In this document: piece by piece, positions 20,770 through 29,939 of the stretch | Numbering within the stretch: the stretch's first letter is position 1 | Layout: each line of letters starts with the position of its first letter | Source: Hyalangium ruber | GTDB taxonomy: Bacteria; Myxococcota; Myxococcia; Myxococcales; Myxococcaceae | Direction of reading: 5' to 3' | NCBI RefSeq assembly: GCF_034259325.1 | Contig: NZ_JAXIVS010000017.1 | Coordinates: forward strand, 1 to 64,000 | DNA: 64,000 nucleotides | Notes under the pieces: generated by a model | The model's database searches: none | What the model was told of the DNA's origin: nothing | Seen by the model: the letters and a program-made list of their open reading frames with translations, nothing else | Position numbers and translations under genes: made by a program

Positions 20770-21669
20770 CTACGCCTGGGTCTCCTGTCGCGCCCGCCGC
20801 CAGTCCCACACGGCCGCGCTCAGCTCCGAGACCAGCACGCTCAGGACGATGAGGCTACCTCCCACCCACTCGCGCACCCCTAGCGTCTCGTACCCCAGCG
20901 CCACCGAGGCCACCGCCGTGAACACCGCCTCCAGCGAGTAGATGATCACCGCGCGCACGGCCGAGGTGCGCGCCTGCGCCCATGTCTGCAACCCGATGGC
21001 CACGGCGCTGGCCATTACCCCGCAGAAGAGCACTGCCCCCACGAAGGCCGGCGTCCACGCCACCCGCGCCTCCACGAAGGGCAGGAACAACACCGCTCCC
21101 AACGACACCACCCACAACTGCACCGCCACCAACGCCACCACCCCCTCCTTCGGCGCATAGCGCTCCGTGAGGACGACGTGGACGGCGTACGCCATCGCTC
21201 CCGCCAGGGTGAGCCCGTCTCCCCGGGAGAGCCCCTCGGTGGAGCCCACCTCCGGGCGCGTGAGGAAGTAGAGCCCCACCGCCGAGAGCACCACCCCCAG
21301 CAGCGACGAGACGCGCGGCACCCGCCGGAACAGCACCAGCAGCACCAGTGGCACGAACAGCACATACAGCCCGGTGATGAACGCCGAGCGCGAGGGCGTG
21401 GTCGTCGCCAGCCCCACCGTCTGGAAGGCGAAGCCCGCGAAGAGGAAGACGCCCAGCACCGTCCCCCGCCGCAGATGGCTCGGCTCGAACATCCGACGCC
21501 GCGCCATCGCGCTCAGCACCGCCGCTCCCACGCCGAAGCGCAGCGCCAGGAACGTGAACGGGTCCCCGTGGCCCAGCGCGTCCTTCACCACCACGAAGGC
21601 GACGCCCCACAGGATCGTGAGCGCCACCAACACTCCATCCGCCTGGAGACGGGCCCGCCGCTCCGTCAT
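20770..21669 (-). CDS. EamA/DMT-family permease
   Basis: 299 aa from the ATG at 21669. Ten predicted helices in two EamA repeats; TM1 reads LVALTILWGVAFVVVK and the repeat motif TPSRSAFITGLYVLFVP is typical. These inner-membrane carriers export metabolites or amino-acid-like compounds. It follows the S24/S26-GNAT gene on the same strand after 148 bp, so it could export a product of the 21.8-30 kb peptide locus, but that link rests only on position. Confidence 0.88.
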   Translation of the reverse strand: MTERRARLQADGVLVALTILWGVAFVVVKDALGHGDPFTFLALRFGVGAAVLSAMARRRMFEPSHLRRGTVLGVFLFAGFAFQTVGLATTTPSRSAFITGLYVLFVPLVLLVLFRRVPRVSSLLGVVLSAVGLYFLTRPEVGSTEGLSRGDGLTLAGAMAYAVHVVLTERYAPKEGVVALVAVQLWVVSLGAVLFLPFVEARVAWTPAFVGAVLFCGVMASAVAIGLQTWAQARTSAVRAVIIYSLEAVFTAVASVALGYETLGVREWVGGSLIVLSVLVSELSAAVWDWRRARQETQA

Positions 21670-21740
21670 GGGAGGAAGGAGAACGTCACACCGAGGATGG
21701 CGATGCCCAGCACCTCTCCATGGCTGAACTCCCGCGTCAT
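21666..21740 (-). CDS. Possible 24-aa membrane leader ORF overlapping the EamA start
   Basis: A short frame, MTREFSHGEVLGIAILGVTF plus four residues, ends in TGA sharing the ATGA with the permease start codon. It is hydrophobic enough for one membrane helix and the overlap resembles the coupling seen elsewhere in this window. The ribosome binding site is weak. It may be a small membrane protein, a coupling leader or chance. Confidence 0.3.
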   Translation of the reverse strand: MTREFSHGEVLGIAILGVTFSFLP

Positions 21741-21817: not shown

Positions 21818-22780
21818 TCAAATCAGCGTGCGCTCCAGGACCACCAGGGGCTTGACGCCTCCCGCGACCTTCCACTCCTCGTTGACGCGCTGGGTGAGCT
21901 CGGGCGTGGAGGACCGGAACCCCGCCCTCCGGAACGTCCGCAGGGAGGCCACGTTGTCATCGTCGATGTCCGCGAAGAGCCGGTCTGCTCCCTGCGCCCG
22001 AGCCGCTTCCACCAGGCAGCAGATGATCTGGTAGGCCACCCCCATGCGCCGCGCCCGGGGCGCCACCACCAGCGAGCGCACCCACAACCCGTCCAGCGCC
22101 AGCCCCTCCTCGCGGTAGTTGTCCAGCCAGGCGAAGCCGCACATCCGCCCTCGCTGGTCGAACGCCCCCACCGCCGCGCCCTCCGGGTCCTCCCGCGACC
22201 AGCGCCGCAAGAGCTGCATGCGCAGGAAGCCCGAGGGCACCAGCAGCCGCTCTCCGGCGAAGACCAGCAGCGCGTCGAGATCCTCCGCCCTCAGCAGGCG
22301 GATCTCCAGCTGGCCCAACCACCGCCTCCGCAGCGGCCGAGACCAGCCCGACACGGTGAAGTCCCGCAGCCCACGAAGGGCCTCGCGACCCTTGGGCCGC
22401 GACCACACCTGGGCCAACAGCCGATGCCCCAGGAAGAGCGTGGGCCGAATCAGCCGGGGCAGCGGGAGCATCCACCGCCCCCGGCGAAGCGCGGTGATGC
22501 GGCCCAGCACCACGCCCGTCGGGTCCTGCACCCCCAGCAGCGAGGCCGTCACCACCGGCTCGGTGGAGGTGACCACGTGCGCCACCAGCCGCCGCCCTAC
22601 CCGCACGAGCGCCACGTCGCCCCGGGCCAGCTCCTCCGACTCGCAGCGCAGCACCCGCACCGAGTCTCCACTGCGCAGCAGCGGGTACAGGCTCCGCCCC
22701 GCTCCCCTCAGCCAGATCTGGCGTCCGGGAGGCGTGGACTCGAGGAGAACCGTGAGGTCAGCGGGCGATCTGCCTGCCAT
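21818..22780 (-). CDS. S24/S26 signal-peptidase-like domain fused to a GNAT acetyltransferase
   Basis: 320 aa from the ATG at 22780; the open frame can start at 22816, deeper in the kinase gene. The N-terminal part (about 1-100) resembles S24/S26 peptidases: GRSLYPLLRSGDSVRV with Ser30 at the nucleophile position, then ARGDVALVRV and RLVAHVV, with His68 where Sec11-type peptidases use His. The C-terminal part (about 160-320) is a GNAT fold with motif A (SLVVAPRARRMGVAYQII) and DDDNVASLRTFRRAGF. It overlaps the end of the HprK-like gene by 23 bases. Proposed role: cleave and/or acetylate the neighbouring 47-aa peptide. The function is inferred. Confidence 0.75.
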   Translation of the reverse strand: MAGRSPADLTVLLESTPPGRQIWLRGAGRSLYPLLRSGDSVRVLRCESEELARGDVALVRVGRRLVAHVVTSTEPVVTASLLGVQDPTGVVLGRITALRRGRWMLPLPRLIRPTLFLGHRLLAQVWSRPKGREALRGLRDFTVSGWSRPLRRRWLGQLEIRLLRAEDLDALLVFAGERLLVPSGFLRMQLLRRWSREDPEGAAVGAFDQRGRMCGFAWLDNYREEGLALDGLWVRSLVVAPRARRMGVAYQIICCLVEAARAQGADRLFADIDDDNVASLRTFRRAGFRSSTPELTQRVNEEWKVAGGVKPLVVLERTLI

Positions 22781-23528
22781 CGAGCCAGTCTCGCACGAAG
22801 CCCGCCGCGGCCTCATCTTTGCGGAAGACGAAGCGGCGGACCGTGGTCTGCTCGACGATGTGCGCCAGGCGCCGGAGCACCTCCCGGGGCGAGCCCTCGC
22901 CCGGCAGCGGCCGGAACACCTGCCCCAGCATCACCGTGAGAGCCTCCCGAGGGGAGACCTCCTCCAGCCGCTCCTCGGTTCCTTTGTGGAGCAACAACAC
23001 CGCTGTCAGCGGTGCGCGGGCACGCGTGGAGGGCAGATCCAGATCCGAGCAGAAGGGGCTGCCCTCCACCCGCCCCTCCGGGTACAGGGCCAGCACCTCG
23101 TCCGAGAGCACCTGGGCCCCGGCGGCCTGGGTACACAGCCGGGTGAAGGTGGACTTGCCCGCCCCGCTCGGACCGATGGCCACCACCCCGCGCTCACCGA
23201 AGGCCACGCCTCCCGCGTGCAAGAGCAGGCCTCCCTGCCGAAGCGTGGCGAGCTGCATCCCCACCCGCAGGGCCAGCTCCGTATCCAGCTCGCCCTTGGG
23301 AGGCTCCACGCGCACCACGTCCCCGTCTACCTGGAAGCGCGTTCCCTGGGGGTAGCGTGGATCCAGCGGAGCGCCCTGGCCCTCGGGCACTGGTTCCGCT
23401 CGCAGCACCAGGCGGGACGCCGACTCCGCGGAGGACAGGAAGGGGGCGAGCGTACACCGCTCGCCCGCCAGGGTCAGAAGCTGCGCATCCACCTCCACGC
23501 TCCAGTCACCGAAGCGCAGACGCCGCAT
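22758..23528 (-). CDS. HprK-related P-loop kinase
   Basis: 256 aa, preceded by a strong ribosome binding site (GGAGGGGGAG). The C-terminal half contains LLLHAGGVAF, a Walker A GPSGAGKST (119-127) and VLSDEVLAL, as in HPr kinase/phosphorylase. The canonical HPr-kinase N-domain is absent; this short form is common near RiPP precursors. HPr-kinase homologues phosphorylate a C-terminal Ser in some lasso peptides (paeninodin type). It lies 21 bp after the 47-aa peptide gene, which makes that peptide the likely substrate. Confidence 0.82.
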   Translation of the reverse strand: MRRLRFGDWSVEVDAQLLTLAGERCTLAPFLSSAESASRLVLRAEPVPEGQGAPLDPRYPQGTRFQVDGDVVRVEPPKGELDTELALRVGMQLATLRQGGLLLHAGGVAFGERGVVAIGPSGAGKSTFTRLCTQAAGAQVLSDEVLALYPEGRVEGSPFCSDLDLPSTRARAPLTAVLLLHKGTEERLEEVSPREALTVMLGQVFRPLPGEGSPREVLRRLAHIVEQTTVRRFVFRKDEAAAGFVRDWLDGRQIAR

Positions 23529-23549: not shown

Positions 23550-23693
23550 TCAGCAGCCGAACTCGGGATCCGGGACGCAGTTGCTCGGGGTGAAGAGGTC
23601 CGGCACGAGGATCCGCTCCGAGCGCACCTGCGGCGGGCTGTAGACCTTCTTCTTCTTCTTCTCAGCCTTCACCGGCTGTGCGGGCGTCGTCAT
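23550..23693 (-). CDS. Precursor-like 47-aa peptide, probable RiPP-type substrate
   Basis: 47 aa: MTTPAQPVKAE, five Lys, then a core ending in Cys47. The middle reads VYSPPQVRSERIL (Tyr18, Pro20-21), a short motif of the Y-x-x-P type that many precursor leaders present to PqqD/RRE proteins. The C-terminus FTPSNCVPDPEFGC has two Cys (39, 47) and Ser37/Thr35 as possible modification sites. It starts 10 bp after the stop of the giant FG-GAP gene and lies 21 bp before the HprK-like gene. Such small genes are often missed by annotation pipelines. Assignment rests on context and composition. Confidence 0.7.
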   Translation of the reverse strand: MTTPAQPVKAEKKKKKVYSPPQVRSERILVPDLFTPSNCVPDPEFGC

Positions 23694-23703
23694 GGGTCCA
23701 GGC

Positions 23704-26700
23704 TCAATAGTACACCATGACACGGGCCGGGTTCGATTGACTATCTCCGGCCGCCAGGTCGGGCTTCCCGTCCCCGTTGAAGTCCAGGATGGTCAGGGTG
23801 ATGCCAAGCGAGCTGGCGGACTCCACCTTGGACTGTGAGAAGCCGTTCTCCTGCATCGTGTCGAACTCCTCTCCCGGGATGCCTCGGTTGTAGAAGACGA
23901 ACGCGGAGCCTCCCGCGCTGAGGTTCTGGCCGATCGCGAGATCCGGCCGGCCGTCCCCGTTGAGATCGCCTTGCGCCAGGGCGTTGCCCAGGCGACTTCC
24001 ACCCAGGATCTCCAAGGGCGCCGTGGTGAAACCCGACGGGCCTCCATCGCGGAACACGTAGACCTTGTTGAGCAGCGCCTGGCTCACCACGAGGTCCAGC
24101 CTCGGCCCTCCCGCCAGATTCACTCCGCCCACCGCCTCCGTGCCGAAGCTCGTGGGCAGACTGCCGCCGGTGTTCGGGCCCTGATGCAGCACCTGCAGCG
24201 CATCCGCCAGCGTGGGCGGATTCGCCGAGCGGACGGTGCTGCCGGAGTACACGTAGAGGTTGTTGATCCGCTCGAACGAGTGCGGAAGGGTGAAGTCCTC
24301 GACGCCATCCCCGGTGATGTCTCCCAGTCGGGTATAGCCACGGTTGCGCCCGAAGAAGTTCACGACGGGCGTGTTGGCCGGCCCGGTGATGACCTTGTCC
24401 GCGCTGCTCGTCGTGACGACGCACGGGGCAGTGGCGCTGCAGCCGGTGCCCAGGGCCCGCCAGGCGCTCGGGGAGCGCCCGTAGAAGATGTAGACCTTGG
24501 GCGGGTTCTCGGTATGCGCGCTGAGGGCCAGCTCCTGCAGTCCATCGCCGGTGATGTCGCCGATCATCTTCACGGTGCCACCCAGCGTGGCGCCCGCGGG
24601 GCCGCGGAACTCGATGGGCCCCGTGGTGTCGACGGTGGTGTTCTTGCGGCCGAAGTACAGGAAGGCCCGGCCACTGTTGGTCGCATAGCCGCGCACCCCC
24701 AGCAGCAGATCCTGGACCACGTCCGCCGTGGGATTGCCCGCATCACCCACGTCGAAGTCCGCCCCATAGAACTGGGAGCCCGTCTCCGGCAGCGTGAGAT
24801 CCTGACGGAGCGGCGGATTGGCCGCCGTCGGGTTGCTCTTGCCGTAATAGATGTGGGCCGTCCCAGGGACACTCGACGCGGCGGCGACCACCAGGTCATC
24901 GAAACCATCCGCGTTCAGGTCGCCGCGCGAGTTGATGTAGAGGCCGAAGTTGTTGCCCGCCGCGCCCGGGTTGGTCAGCGTGAGCGAGGTCCAGAAGTTA
25001 CTGAGGACCTCCTGCGCCGTCTCCGCCACGAAGGGCGCGTAGTTCCCCACCTCGTCGCGCGGCCGGACCTGGATGGAGTAGCGCGCCAGGGGAGGCACCG
25101 TCAGCGTGTAGCGCGTGGTGCCAGCCGGCAGCAGGTTGCCCGTCTCCTGCCGCACCTTCGTACCGAAGAAGGCGGCCGTGTCCTGGATGCCATTCTGGAG
25201 CAGGGCATTGGTCGTCCACCGCAAGTCGTAGCCCACGGGCACGCCCGAGGTTCCATCGTCGCCGCTGGCCGTCCACGTCACCTCCACCCTCGCGGTTCGC
25301 TCCTGGCCCGCAACCAGCGTGCGCGTCACGGTGGGAGTCGCGGGCGGCACCACATCCACGGTGGCCGCCACGCTGTGGCTCGTCACGTTCCCGGACACGT
25401 CTTGCACGCGCAACTCCAGCGTGCCCACCGTGTCCTGCGGCAACGTCACCGGGACCTCCAGCGTCTGCGGGTCCGTGGTCACGCTGAACTCCGAGGAGAC
25501 GGCGCTGCCCCGATAGAAGGCCTGCACCTTGCTGCCCACCGCCTGGATCACCGTGAGGGTGAACGTCGCGTTGGCGTCCCCTCCCGGCGCCGCGTCCACC
25601 ACCCGGTCGGGCGCGGGCGTCGGGAGCAGGAAGACGTTGGTGCTCGCCACGAAGTAGAGCGTCGTCGGCGAGGGAGAGACGGAGGTGATGAGCGGTGGGG
25701 TGATGTCCACCGTCACATCCACGGACACGGTAGTGGGCGCGCCAGAGCTGCTGAAGACCTCGATGGTGAGCACCGTGTGCTCGCCGTCGCTCAACGTCAC
25801 GTCGAAGAAGAAGTCGCCCGTCGTCGCATCCGCGGTGGTGGTGGCCTCGGGCGTGCTGGAACCGCCACGGTAGAGGCTCACCGTGCGTCCGCCGCAGGCC
25901 GGGGTGCTCCCGATCAGGCGGTACTGCAGCCCCGGGGTCGCCGGGTCCCGATCGTCACGGGACAGCAGCGTCACCACCGCGGCGGACGGCGTGGTGAGCG
26001 TGATGGGGCAAGGGAGGCGCACGTCCACGCCAGCGGCCAGGTCTCTCGCGGTGTTGCCGGCGGTGTCCGTCGCCTCGACCGAGACCGTCTGCACGCCGGT
26101 GGGGAAGTTGAGGGTGCCCTGCGCCACACCCGAAGACACCGGCAGATCTCCGACGATGGTCTGACTGCCCCCATCCACCTGGGTGAAGATCCGGACCGAG
26201 CCCACGTCGTCGGAGCCGACATCCACGCGAACGGGGATGCTGGCGTTGGTGTAGAGGGTGCCCGCCATTGGCGTGACCAGGTCCACCACCGGCGCCTCCA
26301 GGTCCACGGTGATGGATTGGAGCACCTGCGCGCTGCGGTTGCCCGAGGTGTCCGTGGCGGTGATCGTCAGCGTGTACGTCACCTTGCCCGAGGATGGCAG
26401 GGTGTACTCATGCGTGGCGGCGAGAGACGTGGGCGTCAGGTCCACCGCGCCCCCCGACGGCGTCAGCTCCATGCGCACGCCGCCCGCCCCGACGTCCGTG
26501 TCGGTGTTGACGGTGACGCGCAGCTGGAAGCCCGGGGCACTGGAGCCGTCATCGGCGATGCCCAGCACGTTCCGGGTGGGAGCGCTCACCACGAGCGAGG
26601 GCGCCACGCGATCCAGGCGGAACGAGAAGAAGGCCGCCGTATTGAGCGGGTAGAACGCGGTGGGGTTGGCGATGCGGTTGGCGTTGCCCGCCGCGTCCGT

Positions 26701-29529
26701 CACGGTCACGACGAGCGCGTAGTCCGCCGCGATGCCCGTCGGCAGGGACGAGAGCGAGACGGTGGCCTGGCCGTCGGTGACGGTGGCCTGCCCGTAGATG
26801 ACCCCCAGGTTGCTGGCGTTGCGCACCTGCACCGAGCGTCCGGGCTCCAGGCCATCCACGGCGATGCGCAGCTGCGGCGCGCCCGTGGGGAGCTCCACGG
26901 CGTTCAGGCGCTTGTCGCCGTTGGTGTCGCCGAGCAGCTCCACGGCACGCACCACCGGCTCGACGCTGTCCACCCAGATGGGGACCTCCTCGGAGACGGA
27001 GATGGCCCCATCATCGAGCACGGCCTTCAGGGTGTAGCGACCGTCCGGATAGGTGAACTCGGGGCTGAAGGCCGGCACGTTCGAGGCCAGGGTGAACCAC
27101 CCCGAGCCATCTCGGCACGGCGCCGCGCCCGGCGTGAGCGCCACATCCGTGCAGAGGTCCACCACCGCGTTCGGCGATCGCCCCGGGGCGCTGTAGCGGA
27201 GCTGGTACTGGATGCCCTCCCGGCCCGGCGTCACGTCCGTGCTGACGATGTAGACCGGAGCGGGCGCGGGCGGAGGCGCGGGGATCTCCAGGACGATGTT
27301 CCCCGGCAGGGTATCCACCAGCAACAGCACCGTGGCGCAGGCCACGATGCCTCCCGGTCCGATGAGCTCGGCCCGGAGCACGTTGGCGCCCTCCTCAAGC
27401 ACCACGCCCGTGAACGTCTTCTCCGTGTCGGAGAGCGCCACCGGCACGGAGGCGATCTCGGTCGTCCCGCGCAGCAGCCGCAGCGTTCCCGCAACCGTGG
27501 GCGTCACCGCCAGGCGCACGGCCACGGTAAGCCCCGCGCCCGGCGTCGCCATCACTCCGTCCGAGGCGCCCAGGTAGCGCTCCGCCTCGGGGGAGATGAA
27601 GCGCAGCTCCCCACCCGCGAAGGCCAGCGTCAGCGTCTGGGTCTGCGGGGTGGTATTGCCCGCGGGGTCGGTGGACACCAGCCGCAGCTCACACGTGCCA
27701 CGGGACGGAACGGAGACATCGCGCAGCACCAGCGCGCCGCTGGCGTCGGCCTGGCCCGTCACGCCCGCCGTCATGCCGCACCCCGTGGCCGTCACCGAGG
27801 CACGCGGCTCGGTGGCCACCTCGAGGGCGATCTGCATGCCCGGGCTCAACGAGGTGTCGTTCAGTCCCGAGCCCAGGGTGGTCTGCCCCGCGGGCAGCCC
27901 GCGCACGTTGAAGGACAGCGCGGGCGCGGTGGTGTCCACGCCCAGCGACAGCGCCTGGCTCGTGGCGTTGCTCCCCGGACAGGTGGCGACCAGGGTGTAT
28001 TCGCCATCTCCCGGGAGGGAGAGCGCCAGCTGGCCCGAGCCGGAAGCTGCCGTCCCGCTGGCCTGGCCTCTCGGAGTGCCGCTGGCATCGCGCGCCACCA
28101 CGGAGATGGGGCCGTTGCCCGACTCCACCCGGACCTGCGTCGACGTGGCGCGGGTGAGCGCGCCATCCACGGGGGAGATGATGCGACAGAGCGGCCGGCC
28201 CGTGGAGACCGTGACGGACTCCACCGCGCACTGCTCGATGCCCGCGGCGTTGCTCACGCAGGCCTGCACGGTGTTGACGCCCTCGGCCAGGTTCGCCGTG
28301 AAGGACGCCACGCGGTGGGTGCCGGCCTGCACCGTCGCCACACGCTGGGGGCGCCCGAACTGGCCCGTCACCGAGGTGAACAACCGCACCTCCGTGCCCA
28401 CGGGCAGGGTGTCCACCTGGACGCTCACAGGGATCTGGATCCCTTCTGCCTGGGGACTCCCGTCCGAGGTGACGCTCCCGGCGACGAGCAGGGTCAGCGA
28501 GGGCGCGGCGCTCGCGACCGTGACGGGAATCTCCCGCGTGGTGACGTTGCCGCCCTCATCCGCCACGCGCAGCGTGTAGAGGTACTCCCCATCCACCGGC
28601 ACCGTCACCGTGGGGAAGGACACGCTCCCGGCCACCACTTGCGTGGACAGGTCCGGAGCGTTCGGCCGCGACAGCGTGGCGGTCATGCCGGAATCAATGC
28701 AGCCCACGGTGGCCTCCACCCGGAACGTCGTGGAGGCCACGGGCGCGAACGGCCCGGCCACCTCCACCTGCGGCGCCACCGTGTCCAACAGGATGTTGCG
28801 CTTGGTGGACGTCACCGACTGCTCCCCGGTGCGCACCACCGCGTAGCACGCCGCCCGCTCGGACTCGCACGCCGCCTGCCCCAGCGTCACCGACAGCTGC
28901 GTCACCCCGCTGCTGTTCACCGTGAAGTCCGTGGCCGGCACGCCGCACGCCTGCTCGCAGTAGAGCGTGCCCGTCTTGCCCGCCAGCCCCGTGCTCTTCA
29001 CCGTGAAGCGCAGCTGGTAGCCCGCCGTGCCCGGATCCGCGTCGTCCGACTCGCGCAGCACCTGGCCCTCGGCCGGCTGCGTCAGGTCCACCGTGGGCGC
29101 CTCCGTGGACACCGTCACGCTGATGCGCCGGGTGGCCGTGCGCCGGCTGCCCGCCTCCTCCACCGTCACCTGCAGCACGTTGGTGCGCGCCAGCAGCAGC
29201 GCCCCCGGGAAGCGCACCACGGCTCCGTCGATGATGCCCTCGGGCCCCGCCCGCCACACCTGCTCGGAGGGCGCGCGCAGTTCCAGCTTCGCGCTGGCGA
29301 TCGTCACCGGACGGTCCGCCGTGTCCCGCGCCACCGCCTCCACGTCGTATTGGAAGCCATCCGTGGCCGGATCCGCGTCGTCCACCAGCGCCAGCCGTTG
29401 CCCGTCCGTGGGCCGCGCGAAGTCCACCTCCAGCGCCGACTCGACGGGAGGCGTGCCGCAGTTGCACCCGGAGGCGCCCCATACCAGCGCGAAGCTCATC
29501 AGCAGCCACTGCCATACCGCACGGCGCAT
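23704..29529 (-). CDS. Giant lipoprotein with Ig-like repeats and a C-terminal FG-GAP array
   Basis: 1,941 aa. Signal with lipobox GASGC (Cys22) followed by NCGTPP. Residues about 30-1400 are tandem Ig-like/invasin-type modules with recurring phrases such as VTVDGEY, TDTSGN, TDAAGN, ATDTAGN. A fibronectin-like segment (about 1400-1510, VEVTWTASGDDG) precedes an FG-GAP region (about 1512-1941) with DLNADGFDDL, DITGDGLQEL, DITGDGVEDF, DLNGDGRPDL and DFNGDGKPDL, predicted to bind calcium and form an integrin-like propeller. It is probably outer-membrane and surface exposed, for adhesion. It lies between the PqqD-like and peptide genes on the same strand. Confidence 0.9.
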   Translation of the reverse strand: MRRAVWQWLLMSFALVWGASGCNCGTPPVESALEVDFARPTDGQRLALVDDADPATDGFQYDVEAVARDTADRPVTIASAKLELRAPSEQVWRAGPEGIIDGAVVRFPGALLLARTNVLQVTVEEAGSRRTATRRISVTVSTEAPTVDLTQPAEGQVLRESDDADPGTAGYQLRFTVKSTGLAGKTGTLYCEQACGVPATDFTVNSSGVTQLSVTLGQAACESERAACYAVVRTGEQSVTSTKRNILLDTVAPQVEVAGPFAPVASTTFRVEATVGCIDSGMTATLSRPNAPDLSTQVVAGSVSFPTVTVPVDGEYLYTLRVADEGGNVTTREIPVTVASAAPSLTLLVAGSVTSDGSPQAEGIQIPVSVQVDTLPVGTEVRLFTSVTGQFGRPQRVATVQAGTHRVASFTANLAEGVNTVQACVSNAAGIEQCAVESVTVSTGRPLCRIISPVDGALTRATSTQVRVESGNGPISVVARDASGTPRGQASGTAASGSGQLALSLPGDGEYTLVATCPGSNATSQALSLGVDTTAPALSFNVRGLPAGQTTLGSGLNDTSLSPGMQIALEVATEPRASVTATGCGMTAGVTGQADASGALVLRDVSVPSRGTCELRLVSTDPAGNTTPQTQTLTLAFAGGELRFISPEAERYLGASDGVMATPGAGLTVAVRLAVTPTVAGTLRLLRGTTEIASVPVALSDTEKTFTGVVLEEGANVLRAELIGPGGIVACATVLLLVDTLPGNIVLEIPAPPPAPAPVYIVSTDVTPGREGIQYQLRYSAPGRSPNAVVDLCTDVALTPGAAPCRDGSGWFTLASNVPAFSPEFTYPDGRYTLKAVLDDGAISVSEEVPIWVDSVEPVVRAVELLGDTNGDKRLNAVELPTGAPQLRIAVDGLEPGRSVQVRNASNLGVIYGQATVTDGQATVSLSSLPTGIAADYALVVTVTDAAGNANRIANPTAFYPLNTAAFFSFRLDRVAPSLVVSAPTRNVLGIADDGSSAPGFQLRVTVNTDTDVGAGGVRMELTPSGGAVDLTPTSLAATHEYTLPSSGKVTYTLTITATDTSGNRSAQVLQSITVDLEAPVVDLVTPMAGTLYTNASIPVRVDVGSDDVGSVRIFTQVDGGSQTIVGDLPVSSGVAQGTLNFPTGVQTVSVEATDTAGNTARDLAAGVDVRLPCPITLTTPSAAVVTLLSRDDRDPATPGLQYRLIGSTPACGGRTVSLYRGGSSTPEATTTADATTGDFFFDVTLSDGEHTVLTIEVFSSSGAPTTVSVDVTVDITPPLITSVSPSPTTLYFVASTNVFLLPTPAPDRVVDAAPGGDANATFTLTVIQAVGSKVQAFYRGSAVSSEFSVTTDPQTLEVPVTLPQDTVGTLELRVQDVSGNVTSHSVAATVDVVPPATPTVTRTLVAGQERTARVEVTWTASGDDGTSGVPVGYDLRWTTNALLQNGIQDTAAFFGTKVRQETGNLLPAGTTRYTLTVPPLARYSIQVRPRDEVGNYAPFVAETAQEVLSNFWTSLTLTNPGAAGNNFGLYINSRGDLNADGFDDLVVAAASSVPGTAHIYYGKSNPTAANPPLRQDLTLPETGSQFYGADFDVGDAGNPTADVVQDLLLGVRGYATNSGRAFLYFGRKNTTVDTTGPIEFRGPAGATLGGTVKMIGDITGDGLQELALSAHTENPPKVYIFYGRSPSAWRALGTGCSATAPCVVTTSSADKVITGPANTPVVNFFGRNRGYTRLGDITGDGVEDFTLPHSFERINNLYVYSGSTVRSANPPTLADALQVLHQGPNTGGSLPTSFGTEAVGGVNLAGGPRLDLVVSQALLNKVYVFRDGGPSGFTTAPLEILGGSRLGNALAQGDLNGDGRPDLAIGQNLSAGGSAFVFYNRGIPGEEFDTMQENGFSQSKVESASSLGITLTILDFNGDGKPDLAAGDSQSNPARVMVYY

Positions 29530-29591: not shown

Positions 29592-29939
29592 TCACGGACC
29601 GAGCACCAGCACCTTCTTCTCCACGAGGAGCTTCACGAAGGCCACCGTGTCGGCACGGCACGCCTCCGGCTCCACTTCGAACTCGTCACAGAGCACCGAC
29701 ACGATGTCGGCCACCGTCCGCCGCCCGTCCACCAGCTCCAGGATGCGCTCGGCCACCTCGGACACCTGTCCGCGTTCATCCTCGAAGGTATGCACCTGAT
29801 CATCCGGACTGGCCGCCACGAGCGCGCCGCGTACCCGCTCCAGCCCCGCCTCCGGGTGGAGCCGTGGCACCGCGCGCAGCACGTCCCGCCCCGCGCCCGA
29901 GAGTCGCTTCAGCAGCTTTTTGGGTAGGAGTGCAGCCAC
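29592..29939 (-). CDS. PqqD-like (RiPP recognition element) protein
   Basis: 115 aa from a GTG at 29939 with GGGAG upstream. The region RLHPEAGLERVRGALV, then VAERILELVDGRRTVADIV and DTVAFVKLLVEKKVL, matches stand-alone PqqD domains, which bind the leader of RiPP precursors through a winged-helix beta-strand surface. No PqqE-type radical SAM enzyme or other maturase is nearby. It is the first gene of the minus-strand run that leads through the giant lipoprotein to the 47-aa peptide (62 bp to the next gene). Divergent from the Coa1-like gene. Confidence 0.85.
   Translation of the reverse strand: MAALLPKKLLKRLSGAGRDVLRAVPRLHPEAGLERVRGALVAASPDDQVHTFEDERGQVSEVAERILELVDGRRTVADIVSVLCDEFEVEPEACRADTVAFVKLLVEKKVLVLGP

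Follow-up and report, generated by a model that had tools for sequence, protein, structure and literature searches.

What lies in the narrow interval between the gene for a giant predicted lipoprotein and an HprK-like kinase gene in Hyalangium ruber, and what might its product do? In the stretch of DNA analysed here (64,000 nucleotides, hereafter the window), this interval holds an unannotated minus-strand ORF with its ATG at 23693 and a TGA ending at 23550, translated as MTTPAQPVKAEKKKKKVYSPPQVRSERILVPDLFTPSNCVPDPEFGC. Its start codon follows the stop of the 1941-aa gene by 10 bp, and 21 bp separate its end from the HprK-like ATG at 23528, exactly the spacing given in a preliminary description of this DNA. 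The strong ribosome site noted there was also found: the 21-bp gap contains the purine-rich sequence GGGAGGGGGAG, which serves the HprK-like gene. The encoded peptide has a Lys-rich N-terminus, a conserved block, KKVYSPPQVRS (Y18, P21, V23 and S25), an ILVPDLF linker and then a variable tail, TPSNCVPDPEFGC, which carries the two cysteines that had been announced, Cys39 and Cys47. The motif first described as Y-x-P-P-type is present but is better written YxxP (Y18-S-P-P21).

Table 1 Features of the peptide locus, in window coordinates
Feature	Position	Strand	Evidence
EamA/DMT transporter gene, neighbour judged outside the system	20770..21690	-	Presence in genomes without the system
Serine protease domain, S24/S26 signal-peptidase-like, fused to a C-terminal GNAT domain	21818..22780	-	GNAT PF00583, E 2.9e-12
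HprK-related kinase, 256 aa	22758..23528	-	NCBIfam HprK_rel_A, E 5e-6 (below its cut-off); AlphaFold2
47-aa precursor peptide gene	23550..23693	-	Sequence; same-slot orthologues; pN/pS about 0.16
Giant 1941-aa predicted lipoprotein, Ig-like and FG-GAP	23704..29529	-	Pfam Big_13, FG-GAP; lipobox ...GASGC
PqqD-like RRE gene, 115 aa, likely GTG start at 29939	29592..29939	-	Pfam PF05402, E 1.9e-13

A genuine 47-codon gene

Orthologues of the peptide were first sought by a whole-genome search of the family, after which the same slot was read in further relatives; additional loci were located with an RRE profile, and peptides were then sought inside those loci. An initial set of 23 other genomes has the frame intact and in the same position, and it was unbroken in every further relative whose slot was read. 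In total, genome searches with peptide and RRE profiles, together with slot reading, yielded 43 precursors in 43 genomes spanning six families. The preliminary description had staked the ORF on conservation of its reading frame in related genomes, and the frame is indeed conserved at this slot. It had also proposed a dN/dS analysis, which indicates purifying selection: over the conserved block, the group of the window has a pN/pS of 0.16, four close relatives 0.21 and a more diverged group 0.43. Conservation of the C-terminal residues, a further check proposed, was borne out in part. Pairwise comparison of the final 11 codons among the four close relatives gives 12 synonymous and 0 nonsynonymous differences, leaving these residues unchanged, but the Cys pair is kept only in nearer relatives.

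The part of the peptide that relatives share is [KR][KR]x[YW]xxPx[VLI]x[ST], followed by a tail that varies. The [YW] and P+3 positions are kept in 43/43 peptides, [VLI]+5 in 41/43 and [ST]+7 in 40/43, values that reflect in part how the set was built, as a profile or a YxxP pattern was used to find the later peptides. The S/T at Y+7 was not part of the YxxP search pattern, and the whole-genome searches with the peptide profile were unrestricted by position. When all loci were translated in six frames (1.53 million residues), the strict motif occurred 39 times, and 35 of these occurrences were the peptides themselves. Every one of the 43 peptides abuts the end of a long ORF, with a gap of -32 to +46 bp, and these neighbouring ORFs encode surface proteins with Ig/FG-GAP domains wherever they were scanned.

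The window's peptide had no match in a Pfam and NCBIfam scan; none of the collected peptides matches NCBIfam, and a single Pfam match is at chance level, so that the precursors form a family without a model in either database. A short, Lys-rich, unannotated ORF lacking database matches could be spurious or decaying, a reading whose probability we consider negligible: the frame is intact in all loci examined, synonymous changes predominate and the motif is nearly missing elsewhere in the same loci. Conservation, pN/pS and the rarity of the motif outside the peptides thus rule out a spurious ORF. The hidden 47-codon ORF, as first claimed, is a genuine gene.

Three observations on the wider set stand apart. 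Weak whole-genome peptide matches in one genome (G008) were set aside, as was a second Cys-rich frame resembling YxxPx[L]RSE in another (G137 C25; L113 8523-8646, minus strand), which lies antisense to a predicted lipoprotein gene and may be due to chance. In one genus (g19), the complete locus is retained, with the same neighbours, in just one of 27 genomes (G079, locus L067), which points to repeated loss elsewhere.

Neighbouring genes and known peptide systems

The genes identified in or beside the operon encode the RRE, the giant protein, the peptide, the HprK-like kinase, the signal-peptidase-like (SpI)-GNAT protein, the EamA transporter and an MBL-fold protein. At the operon head, upstream of the giant gene, lies the RRE gene, and a whole-genome search found its PqqD domain in single copy in the 10.77-Mb genome. 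The RRE family profile matches the structures of the lasso RREs TbiB1 and PbaB1 and the LPP RRE LppB (5v1u, 9x90, 9x8z). The HprK-like kinase has a P-loop (GPSGAGKST), His104 and Asp143-Glu144, all invariant among relatives, and its AlphaFold2 model (pLDDT 94) matches the PEPCK/HprK fold. In one lineage (G010, G011, G046 and G088), other genes separate the kinase gene from RRE-giant-peptide, placing it a few kb away. The SpI-like domain carries Ser30, His68 and Asp86, invariant in 13 relatives, and its model matches LexA, UmuD and SipA-type folds. The GNAT fusion belongs to the window's branch and is absent or shortened in others (for example, G006, G052 and G137).

This gene set most resembles that of the Linear Polyphosphorylated Peptides (LPPs), which were described in 2026 from the lpp cluster of Paenibacillus alginolyticus and are reported to be restricted to Bacillota (PMC13381572). 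In LPP experiments, the RRE binds the YxxP of a YxxPxV precursor, an HprK-like kinase adds several phosphates to the core Ser3, and a SipW-like peptidase removes the leader, aided by the RRE; more generally, the YxxPx[V/L] signature binds discrete RREs (PMC13381572). The window's locus likewise has a discrete RRE, an HprK-like kinase with intact catalytic residues and, as predicted from sequence and model, a SipW/SpI-like leader peptidase with Ser-His-Asp (Ser30, His68 and Asp86, compared with the catalytic S29, H68 and D93 in LppS). Both systems combine a highly variable precursor C-terminus with the lack of a macrolactam cyclase and B2 in the locus. The LPP consensus YxxPxVLxHQxIxFETxxS, by contrast, is matched by the window's peptide in YxxPxV alone, and the NTP transferase and MsbA-like/ABC exporter of the LPP core were not seen among the genes identified in or beside the operon. 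The window further differs in its Cys-bearing tail, its giant Ig/FG-GAP lipoprotein gene, its non-Bacillota host and, in its branch, the GNAT fused to the peptidase. By the published definition, the locus is therefore not a full LPP, since its leader follows another consensus and it shows neither an NTP transferase nor an MsbA-like exporter; by analogy, it would work like one, as a variant.

Phosphorylated lasso peptides (paeninodin, and the bsf product; PMC10368454) share with the window a discrete RRE and an HprK-like kinase, and the YxxPx[L/V] leader motif is found in the window's peptide as well as in the bsf leader (YxxPxL). The genes identified in the operon and beside it include no lasso macrolactam cyclase (Asn synthetase-like), and nothing in the whole genome scored above the PF13471 cut-off for a lasso B2 leader peptidase. 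With neither cyclase nor B2 in the locus, a lasso precursor was ruled out. Outside the window, a weak, below-cut-off match to Transglut_core3 (lasso B2; G000 C17:86218-86436) lies in a frame of 530 codons, some 63 kb away from the peptide. A further likeness is to the SynChlorMet cassette (ScmC, HprK-like; ScmD, PqqD-like; ScmE/ScmF, radical SAM; NCBIfam), to which the HprK-like and PqqD proteins of relatives match weakly, all ScmC and ScmD matches falling far under the curated cut-offs.

We favour, with moderate confidence, an LPP-like RiPP precursor: its leader would dock on the RRE, the kinase would phosphorylate the peptide and the protease would trim it, and the product would act with or on the giant lipoprotein. 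In this pathway, the leader K-K-x-Y-x-x-P-x-V, part of the KKVYSPPQVRS block that by analogy is the predicted RRE-binding segment, would dock in the cleft of the PqqD-like RRE, which would present the precursor to the HprK-like kinase for phosphorylation of a Ser/Thr. One candidate phosphosite is S37, just past the ILVPDLF block and a putative counterpart of LppA Ser3, whose offset from the Tyr it nearly shares. The other is S25 (Y+7), which is more conserved than the Ser at the expected phosphosite but falls within the segment that, in LPPs, pairs with the RRE. The Ser-His-Asp protease would then cut off the leader around residues 33-37. The exact site is unpredictable because the LPP leader part before the cut, HQxIxFET, is absent here; signal-peptidase-like enzymes would not normally cut after a Phe or Leu, which counts against this explanation. 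So do the lack of an NTP transferase and an MsbA-like exporter in the locus, the lineage whose kinase gene stands apart and the weaker conservation of the Ser at the expected phosphosite. Binding, phosphorylation and cleavage are each modelled on LPP. In a final step, to which co-occurrence points, the short product with its disulfide-capable Cys pair would be exported and would act with or on the giant Ig/FG-GAP lipoprotein.

The preliminary description had called the peptide the natural substrate of the locus, a proposal strongly supported by its YxxPx[V/L] signature, by the presence of the sole genomic PqqD in the operon and by the way in which peptide, RRE and giant gene travel together. 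If correct, the RRE/HprK-kinase/signal-peptidase RiPP logic reported in 2026 from Bacillota would extend to another phylum.

A giant surface lipoprotein gene linked to the peptide gene

What is new relative to LPPs is the linked giant lipoprotein. Its gene sits between those for the RRE and the peptide, and it encodes bacterial Ig-like domains followed by FG-GAP repeats at the C-terminus. An orthologue was present in 37 of 96 family genomes, and all 37 were among the 40 genomes that bear the RRE. The EamA orthologue, by comparison, was present in 82/96, many of them without the RRE or the giant gene; as it is not restricted to system genomes, synteny alone does not explain the RRE-giant link. 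Its retention in genomes lacking the system ruled out EamA as a dedicated exporter or part of the system. The order RRE-giant-peptide is kept across six families and, together with the abutting genes and strict co-occurrence, makes it likely, on genomic grounds, that the giant lipoprotein is functionally linked to the peptide.

These same features could suit a different role, in which the peptide yields no natural product and is instead a small factor that assists or matures the giant lipoprotein, such as an assembly or export signal that binds the FG-GAP propeller; its processing by the RRE, kinase and protease would switch the display of the giant protein. The abutting gene pairs in 43 loci, the confinement of the giant orthologue to RRE genomes and the constant gene order would all fit such a factor. 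We nonetheless consider it quite improbable, as the tail is far more variable than this role predicts and the kit can apparently work without a giant protein. An alignment scan with HprK found at least two loci outside the phylum, in Acidiferrales and Anaerolineales MAGs (L167 8847-11981 and L168 7816-10543), each with an RRE, a YxxP peptide, an HprK-like gene and a probable radical SAM gene, and the Acidiferrales locus also has an SpI-like frame. No gene for a giant surface protein was seen in either, suggesting that the kit predates its link to the giant protein or is spread more widely than that link.

An FG-GAP protein gene has been noted beside such a cluster before: it borders the bsf lasso cluster of Bradymonas sediminis and was presumed by the authors to be uninvolved (PMC10368454). 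That paper was the only one found in the literature on PqqD together with FG-GAP. For the LPP-like reading, peptides tied to a giant surface lipoprotein, whose orthologue is found only where the RRE occurs, offer a fixed partner protein, and with it a concrete experimental way into the question of what phosphorylated lasso peptides and LPPs do.

Cysteine tails and radical SAM relatives

The tails vary in a patterned way. The window's nearest relatives have two Cys and farther ones have 4, 6 or 8; a few relatives have zero or an odd number. Among the 39 peptides with Cys, 36 have an even count (2, 4, 6 or 8), which suggests disulfides, and the two Cys of the window's peptide can, judging from its sequence, form a disulfide loop. 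Seven relatives (L147, L148, L149, L156, L160, L166 and L115) share the framework C-x(4-7)-C-x(4-9)-CC-x(6-9)-C-x(2-5)-C. The C-C-CC-C-C spacing is familiar from cystine-knot (knottin) peptides, which these seven resemble by framework spacing alone and which the window's own peptide, with two Cys, does not. The Cys-rich relatives may offer a new supply of disulfide-rich bacterial peptides that are genetically encoded.

Radical SAM genes mark other branches. The f6 and f11 relatives have the RRE-giant-peptide-HprK layout plus a YydG-like radical SAM gene, and the f2 relatives have an added radical SAM/SPASM gene; none was seen in the f1, f7 and f8 loci, and the window's operon has no radical SAM maturase among its identified genes. 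The likeness to YydG-type radical SAM epimerase peptides (TIGR04078) is thus one of f6 and f11, the only relatives with Cys-free tails, with matches below the curated cut-off, and the window's peptide has no radical SAM gene nearby.

Could disulfide formation itself be the key maturation? The RRE and SpI-like protease would then do no more than deliver and trim the peptide, the HprK homologue would serve as an ATP-driven chaperone or gate rather than as a kinase of the core, and the product would be small and disulfide-stabilised. The even Cys counts, the shared six-Cys framework and the occurrence of radical SAM genes only outside f1, f7 and f8 speak for this. We still regard it as unlikely, since the invariant P-loop, His and Asp of the kinase argue for catalysis, a disulfide-forming enzyme was not identified in the locus, and the f6 and f11 peptides lack paired Cys yet keep RRE and kinase.

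The preferred, LPP-like reading leaves room for a broader one, possible but in our view doubtful. It describes a previously undescribed, surface-linked RiPP class in Myxococcota, in which the RRE/HprK/SpI kit would produce one precursor per genome and the mature peptide, disulfide-looped (knottin-like in some lineages) or epimerised, would serve the giant, integrin-like Ig/FG-GAP lipoprotein of its operon as a dedicated ligand, cap or cargo. Peptide and surface protein would function as a single unit, perhaps with a role in predation or in recognition between cells.

Finally, two loci with YydG-like radical SAM genes (L114 11747-12769 and L161 5683-6696) beside RRE-giant-peptide-HprK encode peptides with Cys-free, Gly/Pro-rich tails and are candidate epipeptide loci.
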